A DNA stretch of 64,000 bases from Micromonospora sp. WMMD1082. Lineage in GTDB: Bacteria > Actinomycetota > Actinomycetes > Mycobacteriales > Micromonosporaceae. The first letter of the stretch is position 1; each line of letters starts with the position of its first letter. The translations under genes were made by a program, and so were the position numbers. The DNA is taken from NCBI RefSeq assembly GCF_029626175.1, contig NZ_JARUBM010000002.1, positions 4,791,001 through 4,855,000 of the forward strand, given 5' to 3'. The notes below the pieces were generated by a model. The model was given only the letters and a program-made list of their open reading frames with translations, was not told where the DNA came from and did no database searches. This document shows, in pieces, positions 33,724 to 47,649 of the stretch.

Positions 33724-33881
33724 GACGCTGATCGTAGGCCGGTGCGGCCGCCGGTCGGGGTCCGGGACGTCAACTGTAGCCATCCGGGGGTGACGTCGGA
33801 CATATCGCCGCGGGTCGGCGGACCGGGCGGACAGCGGTAAGGATGAGAGAGGATTATGGCGGCTTACGGCGGGGGAGATAC

Positions 33882-35750
33882 GTGGCGAGCGGGACTAGTC
33901 GGGACGTACTCGGTCGCGGGCTGGCCGTGCTCGGGCAGGCCATCCGGGAGCAGCCGAGGATCTTCGCGGTCGCGGTGTCCGGCAGCGTGCTGTTCGGCCT
34001 GATGGTGGTCGCCAGCGCGTTCGTGGTCGGCGCGGTGGTCGGCGATGTGGTGGTCCCGGCGGTCGAGAGCGGGTCGGTCGCGGTGGGCACCCTGGCCGTG
34101 GCCGCCACGGCGCTGTTGGGGCTGAGCGTGCTGCGGGTGGTCGGCATCTTCGGTCGGCGGCTCGGCGCGGGCTACATGCAGTTCCGCCTCCAGGCCGCCT
34201 ACCGCCGCCGGGTGACCCGCCGCTACCTGGACCTGCCGCTGTCCTGGCATCACCGCAACGCCACCGGCACGCTGCTGTCCAACGCCAACTCCGACGTCGA
34301 GGCGGCCTGGCAGCCGATCGCGCCGCTACCCTTCGCGGTCGGCACGCTGGTGATGCTGGTCGGCGCGGTGGTGTCACTGTTCGCCGTCGACTGGGCGCTG
34401 GCGCTGGTCGGGCTGGCCGTCTTCCCGGCCCTGTTCGCGCTCAACGTGGCGTACTCCCGCCGGATGGCCCCCCGCCAGGCGCGCGCCCAGCGGCTACGGG
34501 CCGAGGTCAGCGGCATCGCCCACGAGAGCTTCGACGGCGCGCTGGTGGTCAAGACGATGGGTCGGGAGGCGCAGGAGACCGGCCGGTTCGCGGCCCGGGC
34601 CGGCCAGTTGCGCGACGCACTGATCTCCGTCGGTCGGCTGCGCGGCATCTTCGACCCGATGCTGGAGACCCTGCCCAGCCTCGGCACCCTCGCCGTGCTG
34701 GTGGTTGGCGCGTACCGGCTGCGGCAGGGCGCCATCGAGGTGTCCGAGCTGGTCAGCGTGGCCTTCCTCTTCACCGTGCTGGCCTTCCCGGTGCGGGCCA
34801 TCGGCTGGGTGCTGGCCGAACTGCCGCGCAGCGTCGCCGGCTGGGACCGGGTCCGCCGGGTGCTCGACGCCACCGGCGAGATGCCGTACGGCGACACGCG
34901 GCCGGACCCGTCGGTGGCGGCGCCGGCCACCCTCACCTTCAGCGGCGTCGGATTCGCCTACGAGCCCGCCGAGGCGCACCTGCCCGGCGCCGAGGTGCTC
35001 GGCGAGGTTTCCTTCACCGTCGGCGCCGGGCAGACCGTCGCCCTGGTCGGGCCGACCGGTGCCGGCAAGTCCACCATCGCGGCGCTGGCGGTCCGCCTGG
35101 TGGATCCGCACTCCGGCGCGGTCAGCATCGACGGCGTGGACGTTCGCGAGCTGACCGCGGACGCGCTGGCCGGCGCCGCCGCGTTGGTGGCCCAGGTGCC
35201 GTTCGTCTTCGACGACACCGTCCGGGCCAACGTCTCGCTGGACCGTCCGGGCATCGACGACGAGGCCGTCTGGGCGGCGCTGCGCCTGGCCGAGGCCGAC
35301 GGGTTCGTCGCCGCCCTGCCCGACGGGCTGGACACGATGGTCGGCGAGCGGGGCACCTCGCTCTCCGGCGGTCAGCGGCAGCGGCTCACCCTCGCCCGGG
35401 CACTGGCCGGGCGCCCCCGCCTGCTGGTGCTCGACGACGCGACCAGCGCGGTCGACCCCCGGGTGGAGGCGGCCATCCTGGCCGGGCTGCGCTCGTCCGC
35501 GGCCGGTGGGCCGGGGGCGTCGATCCTGGTGGTGGCCTACCGCCGGGCCACCATCGCCCTCGCCGATGAGGTCATCTACCTGGAGCAGGGGCGGGTGGTG
35601 GCCCGAGGTACCCATCCCACCCTGCTGGCCACCGTGCCCGGCTACACCGACCTGGTCACCGCCTACGAGCAGGCGGAGGTCGACCACGACCGGCAACGCA
35701 CGTACGACGAGGTCACCCCGCTGACCTCCGGCCTGGAGGTGGACCGGTGA
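33882..35750 (+). CDS. ABC exporter half-transporter A (degenerate catalytic site)
   Basis: 622 aa. Six-helix membrane domain (about residues 1-310) followed by an ATPase domain. The Walker A GPTGAGKST (about 389) and the signature LSGGQRQR are canonical. Walker B ends in DD instead of DE (LVLDDATSAVD, about 514), and the H-loop histidine is replaced (VVAYRRATIA, about 549). It pairs with the next gene as a heterodimer. GTG 33882 has GGGGGAG 4 nt upstream; ATG 33843 is the alternative. Substrate unknown. Confidence 0.88.
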   Translation: MASGTSRDVLGRGLAVLGQAIREQPRIFAVAVSGSVLFGLMVVASAFVVGAVVGDVVVPAVESGSVAVGTLAVAATALLGLSVLRVVGIFGRRLGAGYMQFRLQAAYRRRVTRRYLDLPLSWHHRNATGTLLSNANSDVEAAWQPIAPLPFAVGTLVMLVGAVVSLFAVDWALALVGLAVFPALFALNVAYSRRMAPRQARAQRLRAEVSGIAHESFDGALVVKTMGREAQETGRFAARAGQLRDALISVGRLRGIFDPMLETLPSLGTLAVLVVGAYRLRQGAIEVSELVSVAFLFTVLAFPVRAIGWVLAELPRSVAGWDRVRRVLDATGEMPYGDTRPDPSVAAPATLTFSGVGFAYEPAEAHLPGAEVLGEVSFTVGAGQTVALVGPTGAGKSTIAALAVRLVDPHSGAVSIDGVDVRELTADALAGAAALVAQVPFVFDDTVRANVSLDRPGIDDEAVWAALRLAEADGFVAALPDGLDTMVGERGTSLSGGQRQRLTLARALAGRPRLLVLDDATSAVDPRVEAAILAGLRSSAAGGPGASILVVAYRRATIALADEVIYLEQGRVVARGTHPTLLATVPGYTDLVTAYEQAEVDHDRQRTYDEVTPLTSGLEVDR

Positions 35751-35868
35751 GTGCGAGGAGTGAGCCGGTTTTGCGAGCCCCGCAGTCGCGAACGAAGGTG
35801 GATCGGTGAGTGCGAGGAGTGAGCCGGTTTTGCGAGCCCCGCAGTCGCGAACGAAGGTGGTCCGGTGA
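35738..35868 (+). repeat. 59-bp tandem mini-ORF cassette, two copies plus a partial third
   Basis: Copies at 35738-35796 and 35797-35855 differ at one base; a third partial copy runs from 35856 to about 35875. Each copy carries a GTGA stop/start overlap. The result is two 20-residue coupled ORFs (35747-35809 and 35806-35868, beginning MSARSEPVLRAPQ) between the upstream ABC gene stop and the downstream GTG at 35865. The unit length of 59 (= 60 - 1) keeps every junction a 4-nt overlap. Confidence 0.85.
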
Positions 35869-37640
35869 GTGCGAGCGCCAGGAGCGAGCAGGTGGAGTCG
35901 ACGTGGCGGACACTGCGCCGCGGGCTCGCGCTCTCCCCGGAGCTGCGGGTCGGGCTGGCCGGCACGCTCGGCCTGGCGCTGATCTACATGATCGGCCGGG
36001 TGGCCGTGCCGGTGGCGGTGCAGCAGGGCATCGACCGGGGCATCGTCGGCGGGCCCGACCTGGACGCGCTGTTCACGGTGGTGGCGATCACCGCCGGCGT
36101 GCTGGTGGTGACCACGGCCTGCGGCTACCTGATGATGCGCCGCCTGTTCACGGTCAGCGAGACGGCGCTGGCCGGGGTGCGGGTACGCGCGTTCCGGCAC
36201 GTGCACGACCTGTCGATGCTGCACCAGCAGTCCGAGCGGCGGGGTTCCCTGGTCTCCCGGGTCACCAGCGACGTCGACCAGATCACCCAGTTCCTCCAGT
36301 GGGGCGGGGTGATCCTGCTGGTCAACCTCGGGCAGTTGGCGGTCACCACCGCGGTGATGCTGGCCTACTCGTGGCAGTTGACGCTGGTGGTCTTCGCCGC
36401 CTTCGTGCCGGCGGTGCTGGTGATCCGGGTGCTGCAACGGCGGCTCGCGGCGGCGTACGGCGTGGTCCGGCAGCGCACCGGCGCGTTGCTGGCGGCGGTC
36501 GGGGAGAGCGTGGTCGGCGCGTCCGTGATCCGGGCGTACGGCGTCGCCGGGCGGACGGCCCGGCGGCTGGACGAGGCGATCGACGGTCAGCGACGGGCCC
36601 AGCAGCGGGCGATCCGGATCAGCATCCTCGGCAGTTCCATCGGGGAACTGGCCGCCGGGTTGGCGTTGGCCGGCGTGGTGGTGCTCGGGGTGTTCCTCGG
36701 CGCCGACCGGACGCTGACCATCGGCGAGGTCACCGCGTTCCTCTTCCTGGTCACGCTCTTCATCCAGCCGGTGCAGATCGCCACCGAGGTGCTCAACGAG
36801 GCGCAGAACGCGATCGCCGGCTGGCGTCGGGTGCTCGACGTGCTGGACGTGGCCCCGGACGTGGCCGACCCGGGCCCGCAGGGGCGGGAGCTGCCCACCG
36901 GGCCGCTGGACATCCGCTTCGCCGAGGTGCGCTTCGCCTACCCGGACGGGCCGACGGTGCTGCACGACATCAGCCTGGACATCCCGGCGAAGAGCCGGGT
37001 GGCGGTGGTCGGTGAGACCGGCAGCGGCAAGACCACCTTCGCCAAGCTGCTCACCCGGTTGATGGACCCGACGGCGGGCGCCGTGCTGCTGTCCGGGGTG
37101 CCGCTGACCGACGTCCGCTTCGACTCGTTGCGCTCCCGCGTGGTGATGGTCCCGCAGGACGGCTTTCTGTTCGACGCCACGGTCGCCGACAACGTCCGCT
37201 TCGCCCGCCCGGAGCTGACCGACGAGCAGCTCACGGCCGCCTTCACCGAGCTGGGCCTGGCCGACTGGCTGGACGGGCTGCCCGCCGGGTTGGCCACCGG
37301 GGTGGGTGAGCGCGGCGAGGCGTTGAGCGTGGGGGAGCGGCAGCTGGTCGCGTTGGCCCGGGCGTACGTGGCCGATCCGGACCTGCTGGTGCTGGACGAG
37401 GCGACCAGCGCGGTCGACCCGGCCACCGAGGTCCGTTTGCAGCGGACCCTGGACGCGGTGACCCGGGGGCGGACCACCCTGGCCATCGCGCATCGGCTCT
37501 CCACCGCTCAGGGCGCCGACGAGGTGATCGTGGTGGACCGGGGGCGGGTCGTGCAGCGTGGCCCGCACGACGAGTTGATCCGCGACCCGGATTCGGTCTA
37601 CGGCCTGCTCTACGCCTCGTGGCTGGAGCAGACCCGGTAG
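35865..37640 (+). CDS. ABC exporter half-transporter B (consensus catalytic site)
   Basis: 591 aa. Six-helix membrane domain followed by an ATPase domain with Walker A GETGSGKTT (about 383), Walker B LVLDEATSAVD (about 507, catalytic Glu present) and H-loop LAIAHRLSTA. The signature is degenerate: LSVGERQ instead of LSGGQ. This complements half A, giving one consensus and one degenerate ATP site, as in heterodimeric exporters such as TM287/288. Its N-terminus (MSASARSEQV) resembles that of the mini-ORFs just upstream. Translation is probably coupled through them. Confidence 0.9.
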   Translation: MSASARSEQVESTWRTLRRGLALSPELRVGLAGTLGLALIYMIGRVAVPVAVQQGIDRGIVGGPDLDALFTVVAITAGVLVVTTACGYLMMRRLFTVSETALAGVRVRAFRHVHDLSMLHQQSERRGSLVSRVTSDVDQITQFLQWGGVILLVNLGQLAVTTAVMLAYSWQLTLVVFAAFVPAVLVIRVLQRRLAAAYGVVRQRTGALLAAVGESVVGASVIRAYGVAGRTARRLDEAIDGQRRAQQRAIRISILGSSIGELAAGLALAGVVVLGVFLGADRTLTIGEVTAFLFLVTLFIQPVQIATEVLNEAQNAIAGWRRVLDVLDVAPDVADPGPQGRELPTGPLDIRFAEVRFAYPDGPTVLHDISLDIPAKSRVAVVGETGSGKTTFAKLLTRLMDPTAGAVLLSGVPLTDVRFDSLRSRVVMVPQDGFLFDATVADNVRFARPELTDEQLTAAFTELGLADWLDGLPAGLATGVGERGEALSVGERQLVALARAYVADPDLLVLDEATSAVDPATEVRLQRTLDAVTRGRTTLAIAHRLSTAQGADEVIVVDRGRVVQRGPHDELIRDPDSVYGLLYASWLEQTR

Positions 37641-46348: not shown

Positions 46349-47569
46349 GTGAGTCAGGAGCAGTTCCCCGACACCGCCGGTCACTTCGGCCCGTTCGGTG
46401 GCCGGTTCGTGCCGGAGGCGCTGGTCGCCGCGCTCGACGAACTGGGCGCGGCGCACCGCGCGGCCATGGCCGACGAGGCGTTCCGGGCCGAGTTCGCCGC
46501 CCTGCTGCGCGACTACGCCGGCACACCGTCACTGCTCTACGAGGCCCGCCGGTTCTCCGCGCGGGCCGGGGCCCGGGTGCTGCTCAAGCGGGAGGACCTC
46601 AACCACACCGGCGCGCACAAGGTGCGCAACGTGCTCGGTCAGGCGCTGCTGACCCGCCGGATGGGCAAGCAGCGGGTGATCGCCGAGACCGGCGCCGGTC
46701 AGCACGGCGTCGCCGCCGCCACCGCCGCCGCCCTGTTCGACCTGGAGTGCGTGGTCTACATGGGTCAGGTCGACACCGAGCGGCAGGCGCTGAACGTGGC
46801 CCGGATGCGGATGCTCGGTGCCACGGTCGTACCGGTGACGACCGGCTCGCGCACCCTCAAGGACGCGATGAACGAGGCGATGCGGGACTGGGTCGCCAAC
46901 GTCGACCGGACCCACTACCTGATCGGCACCGCCGCCGGCCCGCACCCCTTCCCGGCGCTGGTCCGCGACTTCGTCCGGGGCATCGGCGACGAGGCCCGGG
47001 CGCAGTGTCTCGACCTCACCGGCGCGCTGCCGGACGCGGTGACCGCCTGCGTCGGCGGTGGCTCCAACGCGCTGGGCATCTTCCACGCCTTCGTCGACGA
47101 CCCGCAGGTGCGGCTCTACGGCTTCGAGGCCGGTGGCGAGGGGGTGGACACCGGCCGGCACGCCGCCAGCATCACCGGGGGCTCCACCGGCGTGCTGCAC
47201 GGCACCCGCACCTACGTGCTCCAGGACGCCGACGGTCAGACGCAGGAGTCCCACTCGATCTCCGCCGGCCTGGACTACCCGGGCGTGGGCCCGGAGCACG
47301 CCTGGCTGCACGACACCGGCCGGGCCAGCTACCAGCCGGTCACCGACGACGAGGCGATGACGGCGTTCGCGCTGCTCTGCCGCACCGAGGGGATCATCCC
47401 GGCGATCGAGAGCGCGCACGCCGTCGCCGGCACCCTGGCCGTCGCGCCGAAGCTCGCCGCCGAGTTGGGCCGGGAGCCCACCATCGTGGTCAACCTCTCC
47501 GGCCGGGGCGACAAGGACGTGCACACCGCCGGCGAGTACTTCGGCATCCTGGGCAAGGAGGCACCATGA
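46349..47569 (+). CDS. trpB: TrpB, tryptophan synthase beta chain
   Basis: 406 aa. PLP enzyme joining indole and serine. Lysine motif [19 protein letters not shown], phosphate loop [13 protein letters not shown] and ESGxH-type IESAHAVAG are present; it belongs to the TrpB1 type that pairs with TrpA ([15 protein letters not shown] at the N-terminus). GTG 46349 follows GAGAGGA. The stop is in a 4-nt overlap with a mini-ORF rather than directly with trpA. Confidence 0.97.
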
Positions 47570-47649
47570 GCGAGCGGGAGCGAGTGAATCATCGGCTCAG
47601 TGCGGTGGTGCCTCATGGCGGCACGGAGCGCAGCGGAGTGCTGGCATGA
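47566..47649 (+). CDS. 27-aa coupled mini-ORF between trpB and trpA
   Basis: ATG 47566 overlaps the trpB stop and the TGA at 47647-47649 overlaps the trpA ATG, so an 80-bp insert carries a complete ORF beginning [19 protein letters not shown]. The first 12 bases (ATGAGCGAGCGG) are repeated exactly at the start of trpA, giving 12-bp direct repeats around the insert. It is analogous to the 59-bp cassettes at 35.7 kb. Whether the peptide has a function is unknown. Confidence 0.65.

Follow-up and report, generated by a model that had tools for sequence, protein, structure and literature searches.

A dispersed short repeat before gene starts in Micromonospora, resembling mycobacterial interspersed repetitive units

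The repeats considered here form a family of short DNA units in Micromonospora, represented in a 64,000-nucleotide stretch (the window) of Micromonospora sp. WMMD1082 (assembly GCF_029626175.1, contig NZ_JARUBM010000002.1, positions 4,791,001 to 4,855,000 of the forward strand). Two ABC exporter genes, each encoding ABC_membrane and ABC_tran domains and both lying on the forward strand (33843..35750 and 35865..37640), are separated there by two 59-bp units at 35747-35864. Tandem Repeats Finder places the array at 35737-35875 with a period of 59, 2.4 copies and 96% matches, in agreement with a preliminary description of this DNA that spoke of two nearly identical copies and a partial third. The TGA stop codon of the upstream gene (35748-35750) lies within the GTGA of the first unit, and each unit recreates this GTG/TGA overlap, as that description had also stated (35747-35750, 35806-35809 and 35865-35868). 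The predicted reading path accordingly leads from the upstream gene through two frames of 20 codons into the downstream gene, which bears out the proposed chain of two 20-residue frames. The first mini-open reading frame (mini-ORF; 35747..35809, forward strand) has a GTG start and a TGA stop (35807-35809) that overlaps the following GTG; the second (35806..35868, forward strand) has a stop that overlaps the start of the downstream ABC gene. The corresponding peptides are MSARSEPVLRAPQSRTKVDR and MSARSEPVLRAPQSRTKVVR.

Each unit contains a conserved 22-base core (GCGAGCCCCGCAGTCGCGAACG in unit 1, 35773..35794; 35832..35853 in unit 2; both on the forward strand) followed by a Shine-Dalgarno-like 3' end on the same strand (GAAGGTGG, 35794..35801, preceding the next GTG in unit 1; 35853..35860, preceding the GTG of the downstream ABC gene in unit 2), for which pairing energies are given below at class level. 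With up to three mismatches the core occurs twice in the window and in none of 100 dinucleotide shuffles. The start of the downstream ABC gene matches the 5' end of the unit, and the codons at its beginning (MSASARSEQV) have the appearance of the 5' part of a decayed third unit. At the other edge of the array, the tail of the upstream gene and the 3' tail of the unit agree at 13 of 14 positions (GGTGGACCGGTGAG and GGTGGATCGGTGAG), the left copy of this flanking direct repeat (GGTGGACCGGTGAG, 35738..35751, forward strand) comprising the end of the upstream gene and the first start. The partial third copy is thus recognisable at both edges of the array. The likeness of MSASARSEQV to the start of the cassette holds as originally described; the idea of a unit that merely duplicates its target does not, since it consists of a fixed core plus a short direct repeat.

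The 138-bp stretch matches 26 places in its own genome, and the core (at most three mismatches) was found 30 times, compared with once for a reversed control. With at most one mismatch the core is present in 150 of 151 genomes of the genus (reversed-pattern control: 0 among the rows listed). In an order-wide search of 397 genomes allowing three mismatches, all 62 genomes of the same genus matched. Any core match was found in 36 of the 335 genomes of other genera, and more than two matches occurred only in G208 (7) and G358 (3); the reversed control likewise gave one or two matches in a number of genomes. The family is therefore a genus-wide dispersed repeat, hardly present outside Micromonospora. 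These dispersed copies, with the same core lying before 73 distinct genes, refute the notion of a purely local tandem duplication of a gene start, which has practically no chance of being right even though units within an array are alike and the unit tail matches the end of the upstream gene. Named Micromonospora records, one of them filed as Verrucosispora, carry the unit as well. BLAST searches gave no match in a phage collection and a single record in a plasmid collection, an annotated named record with one unit between acyltransferase and glycerol-3-phosphate dehydrogenase genes. The single Rfam match was at chance level (E 0.73, far under its gathering score), and the literature searched, outside which most subscription papers fell, contained no description of the element in Micromonospora.

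The placement of units was examined in nine genomes, using a cluster search pattern that is independent of location. Of 102 clusters, 25 came from the own genome and 77 from eight other genomes, for which 90 were listed; three of the 25 fell below the unit threshold, leaving 99 scorable clusters. All 99 have a co-directional coding sequence directly behind the unit; the random scatter that had been named as evidence against a junction-specific element was not seen. Upstream coding is co-directional for 85 clusters, unclear for 10 and divergent for 4. One of these four (L157) was scored unclear in three related loci. The other three (L032, L160 and L154) have a TANNNT-like box 7-8 nt before the unit GTG, and may represent leaderless starts. 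Because some copies adjoin a divergent upstream gene, insertion seems to be aimed at the start codon and not at the stop/start overlap. The element can hence still be called specialised for junctions, as first suggested, but the overlap itself does not appear to be its target. At L131, a 10-codon ORF behind a TACGCT box enters the first unit through a GTGA overlap.

Downstream genes that could be identified encode an ABC exporter, TrpA, Pgk, a histidine phosphatase family protein, an aminotransferase, an amidohydrolase, NADH dehydrogenase subunits and an arginase family protein. In the own genome (C2, 3403892 to 3416849) three units (L037, L033 and L027) lie within 13 kb before NADH dehydrogenase-type genes, encoding Complex1_49kDa, an NADH-G type subunit and Proton_antipo_M; one operon of this type seems to hold several insertions.

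A cluster was scored as chained when NTGA overlaps or in-frame fusions lead through to the downstream frame. The chain reaches the downstream gene in 90 of the 99 clusters, ending by overlap in 80 (among them L104, which also shows a fusion) and by in-frame fusion in 10. Counted per distinct downstream gene, at least one cluster reaches the gene in 67 of 73 cases, and all clusters do so in 64. Array spacings were 56 bp (12 cases), 57 (2), 59 (12), 60 (12), 61 (4) and 62 bp (4); spacings from the same array are not independent of each other, and one array of the own genome, spaced at 53 bp, was under the threshold. The preliminary description held that only lengths of 2 modulo 3 are compatible with the chain, and that a spread over all three residue classes would speak against it. 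All three classes do occur (28, 14 and 4 of 46 for classes 2, 0 and 1), so a strict length rule fails. Class 2 gives separate mini-ORFs, and class 0 gives a mini-ORF fused to the next unit or gene; class 1 is represented by two 61-bp arrays (L137 and L143), in which an additional internal GTGA of the unit (GAGGAGTGAGC) carries the chain. The constraint would thus appear to be an unbroken reading path to the gene, and for the most part it holds.

Such a pattern might also arise by selection alone, if insertion were indiscriminate and only sense copies at gene starts survived. The reading chain is what selection would keep, and class-1 lengths are rare. With rough gene calls, however, the window contains 660 RTGA sites, 93 of them wholly between genes and 25 at starts, and harmless intergenic landings should then be common; start-only landing is not what harmlessness by itself would be expected to produce. 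None of the 99 clusters is antisense to, or lacks, a coding sequence directly behind it. Placing by selection alone is nevertheless quite possible, at somewhat less than even odds, and it is compatible with the explanation that we prefer below.

Of the units, 87 read the core in frame 2, 45 in frame 0 and 3 in frame 1. This implies that what is conserved is the DNA and not the peptide. Open frames of 20 codons exist at many loci, as they should if a functional product of 20 residues (MSARSEP...) were the reason for conservation, but the three frames yield unrelated peptides, and the fused units and 61-bp arrays alter the peptide altogether. A micropeptide function was rejected on this frame usage and is extremely improbable. 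A conserved RNA structure was likewise discarded, as the folds of five unit types were no better than those of shuffles (z 0.34 to -1.34).

Two junctions were compared among the best-matching 30 of 151 genomes each. At the gap-pgk junction (Pfam Gp_dh and PGK), empty sites in relatives are indeed found: 21 orthologs are empty, 7 are filled and 2 (L236 and L244) carry footprints of six extra bases, compatible with imprecise loss. Filled sites are longer by 56 bp (five cases), 59 bp (L235) or 35 bp (L237, a decayed remnant), all 2 modulo 3, and by eye the GTGA overlaps are kept at all seven. Comparison of L238 with L240 gives an insert of exactly 56 bp, flanked on both sides by CTGTGAG. On the tree of the flanking genes the filled state requires at least five changes, three of them forced by well-supported branches. 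At the ABC junction the orthologs contain no scorable core (11, some with remnants), one (4), two (11) or three (4) cores of differing subtypes, and the chain is intact in all 30. The downstream ABC protein of L193 has as its N-terminus the 5' half of a unit, joined to it by in-frame fusion. A palindromic GGGGCCC-rich repeat, perhaps terminator-like, lies near the 3' end of the ABC gene in some of the relatives (L189, L192 and L193).

Flanking direct repeats at three sites picked by eye measure 14 nt (93% identity), 9 nt (100%) and 16 nt (81%). Over 79 sites, identity before the RTGA exceeds that of permuted sites at positions -1 (z 4.9), -2 (4.4) and -4 (3.3), with no excess at -3 or -6. Inverted repeats joining the unit ends were absent from the three sites tested; one 11-nt inverted pair (82%) in L025 links the upstream flank and the core, not the two unit ends.

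Pairing of the unit 3' end with the anti-Shine-Dalgarno sequence averages -8.4 kcal/mol over the 79 sites, compared with -5.4 for same-base shuffles, -6.9 for upstream gene ends and -2.2 kcal/mol for random positions. Such strong pairing would suit a regulatory module useful to the host, in which the mini-ORF and Shine-Dalgarno sequence tune downstream translation and are selected for rather than selfish. More than one occupied cluster in 20 of the 73 downstream-gene groups (mostly from different genomes), and a chain kept even by decayed copies (L237 and L186), also fit this idea. Against it stand the gap-pgk orthologs, most of which are empty with the same overlap, the lack of a common role among the few downstream genes identified, and a copy number that varies from 0 to 3 among relatives. 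We therefore regard a regulatory role as very unlikely.

We propose, with a probability of roughly 0.8, that the units are a short non-autonomous interspersed element that enters at Micromonospora gene start codons and is nearly silent for translation. The element consists of a core of about 45 bp flanked by a short direct repeat, and successive units are mostly spaced by 56-62 bp. Its 5' end would provide an RTGA that is both the stop of the upstream gene and the start of the mini-ORF, its 3' end would bring a Shine-Dalgarno sequence, and the duplicated target would restore an RTGA serving as mini-ORF stop and host gene start. Ribosomes would then end and restart at every junction, or read through in-frame units, and insertion would for that reason be close to silent. 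Units may subsequently multiply in tandem. They may also be lost again, often exactly, with recombination between the direct repeats as the probable route, or may decay and so give the downstream protein a new N-terminus. The proposal is supported by the location and orientation of the units, the chain, the empty, filled and decayed sites, the direct repeats and the anti-Shine-Dalgarno pairing. From these we infer that the mini-ORFs are translated, that the element actively moves, and how it moves and is lost. The earlier suggestion of a mobile or amplifying element is in line with the dispersal and the presence or absence of units, from which mobility is deduced.

Several points weigh against this proposal. 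Coupling is a prediction from the DNA sequence, and under the strict rule nine of the 99 clusters lack a complete chain (four breaks, four without a recognised start, their 5' ends truncated or variant, and one in the wrong frame). A chain also survives 27% of simulated 1-nt deletions in the last unit (254 of 950 trials) and 79% of 2-nt deletions (755 of 950, mostly through fusion of the mini-ORF to the gene), so that chaining in itself is not extreme evidence. The 99 clusters and 79 sites include kin sites across several genomes and are not independent. Shuffling the labels on the gap-pgk tree gave a mean of 6.5 changes, with 45 of 500 shuffles as low as observed, and the pattern there may represent one gain and several losses instead of recent movement. 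Finally, no transposase or reverse transcriptase partner was identified as mobilising machinery, the search being limited to BLAST of the phage and plasmid collections.

A second family is found in the same window. Between trpB and trpA, an 80-bp unit with a mini-ORF of 27 codons (47566..47649, forward strand) overlaps its neighbours through ATGA at both ends. A motif scan of the window for TrpB and TrpA found none, and the genes were located instead by size and Pfam (IGPS, PALP and Trp_syntA), the PALP gene being read as TrpB from its neighbours. This family occurs at 46 places in its own genome. A search of 200 genomes of the order found it in 20 of the 23 that belong to this genus, but in none of the 177 others. 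Of 30 loci read, 4 repeat a site; for the remaining 26, the chain reaches the downstream gene in 24, is broken in 1 and lacks a recognised start in 1, with downstream coding clear in 22 and unclear in 4. Judged by its sequence, the 80-bp family behaves like the first, a dissimilar sequence with the same design, which upholds the earlier assignment of the trpB-trpA case to the same class.

A start-codon repeat with a coupled ORF is a design known from mycobacteria (PMC12548453). The presence in Micromonospora of two more such families, dissimilar in sequence, suggests that DNA has a general means of settling in dense operons while leaving them expressed. With many orthologous sites filled, empty or decayed, it can be tested directly how targets are chosen, how units are lost and how new N-termini arise. 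In addition, gene starts adjoining units are easily misannotated, and unit arrays may serve as variable-number markers for Micromonospora strains.

REP/BIME sequences are extragenic palindromic repeats. The Micromonospora unit is likewise short, dispersed and present in many copies per genome, but it has no stable hairpin beyond shuffles (five unit types) and sits before gene starts. MITEs are small, have no gene of their own for movement and are flanked by short direct repeats; the Micromonospora unit shares the small size and a target-site duplication (the direct repeats, and CTGTGAG in the comparison of empty and filled sites), but terminal inverted repeats were not found at the three sites tested.

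The closest likeness is to the mycobacterial interspersed repetitive units (MIRUs), reportedly described by Supply et al. in 1997; such mycobacterial repeats serve to fingerprint tuberculosis strains. A MIRU motif was present in 43 of 78 genomes of a presumably mycobacterial genus. When 30 presumed MIRU loci were read under a comparable but less strict rule, 20 chained, 2 broke, 7 lacked a recognised start and 1 lacked a unit; in the 20 that chain, anti-Shine-Dalgarno pairing before the gene start averages -9.3 kcal/mol. At L293, a presumed MIRU locus, a MIRU-like unit flanked on either side by CTCATGTCG lies at an ATGTCG start; targets other than RTGA are thus possible. MIRUs are described as apparently mobile repeats whose insertion sites are start codons and whose ORF is coupled at -4 (PMC12548453). 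The Micromonospora unit similarly lies at start codons or RTGA overlaps (all 99 clusters precede co-directional coding, and 90 of them chain), has an internal ORF that runs the same way as the host gene and overlaps its start by 4 nt (fused in frame instead in 10 of 90, and in L104), and is both dispersed and in tandem at tens of bp. It differs in genus, in the 80-bp family alongside it and in spacing, mostly 56-62 bp compared with about 50-55 bp in listed MIRU arrays. When four subtypes were aligned locally with two forms of MIRU, between 398 and 963 of 1000 shuffles scored no lower than the real sequences, although these sequences are short and a remote common origin is possible. Similarity of the 80-bp family to two forms of the first family and to MIRUs was also not above shuffles.

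One could imagine that these three sequence-unrelated families (the 56-62 bp units, the 80-bp trpB-trpA units and MIRUs) have converged on translation-silent insertion at start codons only, with targeting and single orientation being mechanistic. This would include starts without a co-directional upstream gene, for example by recognition of translation starts on mRNA or through a transcription-coupled intermediate. We consider this rather unlikely; if true, mechanistic recognition of starts would add a new way in which a mobile element chooses its target. The Micromonospora element works like a MIRU, but as no sequence kinship was detected, we call it MIRU-like rather than a MIRU.

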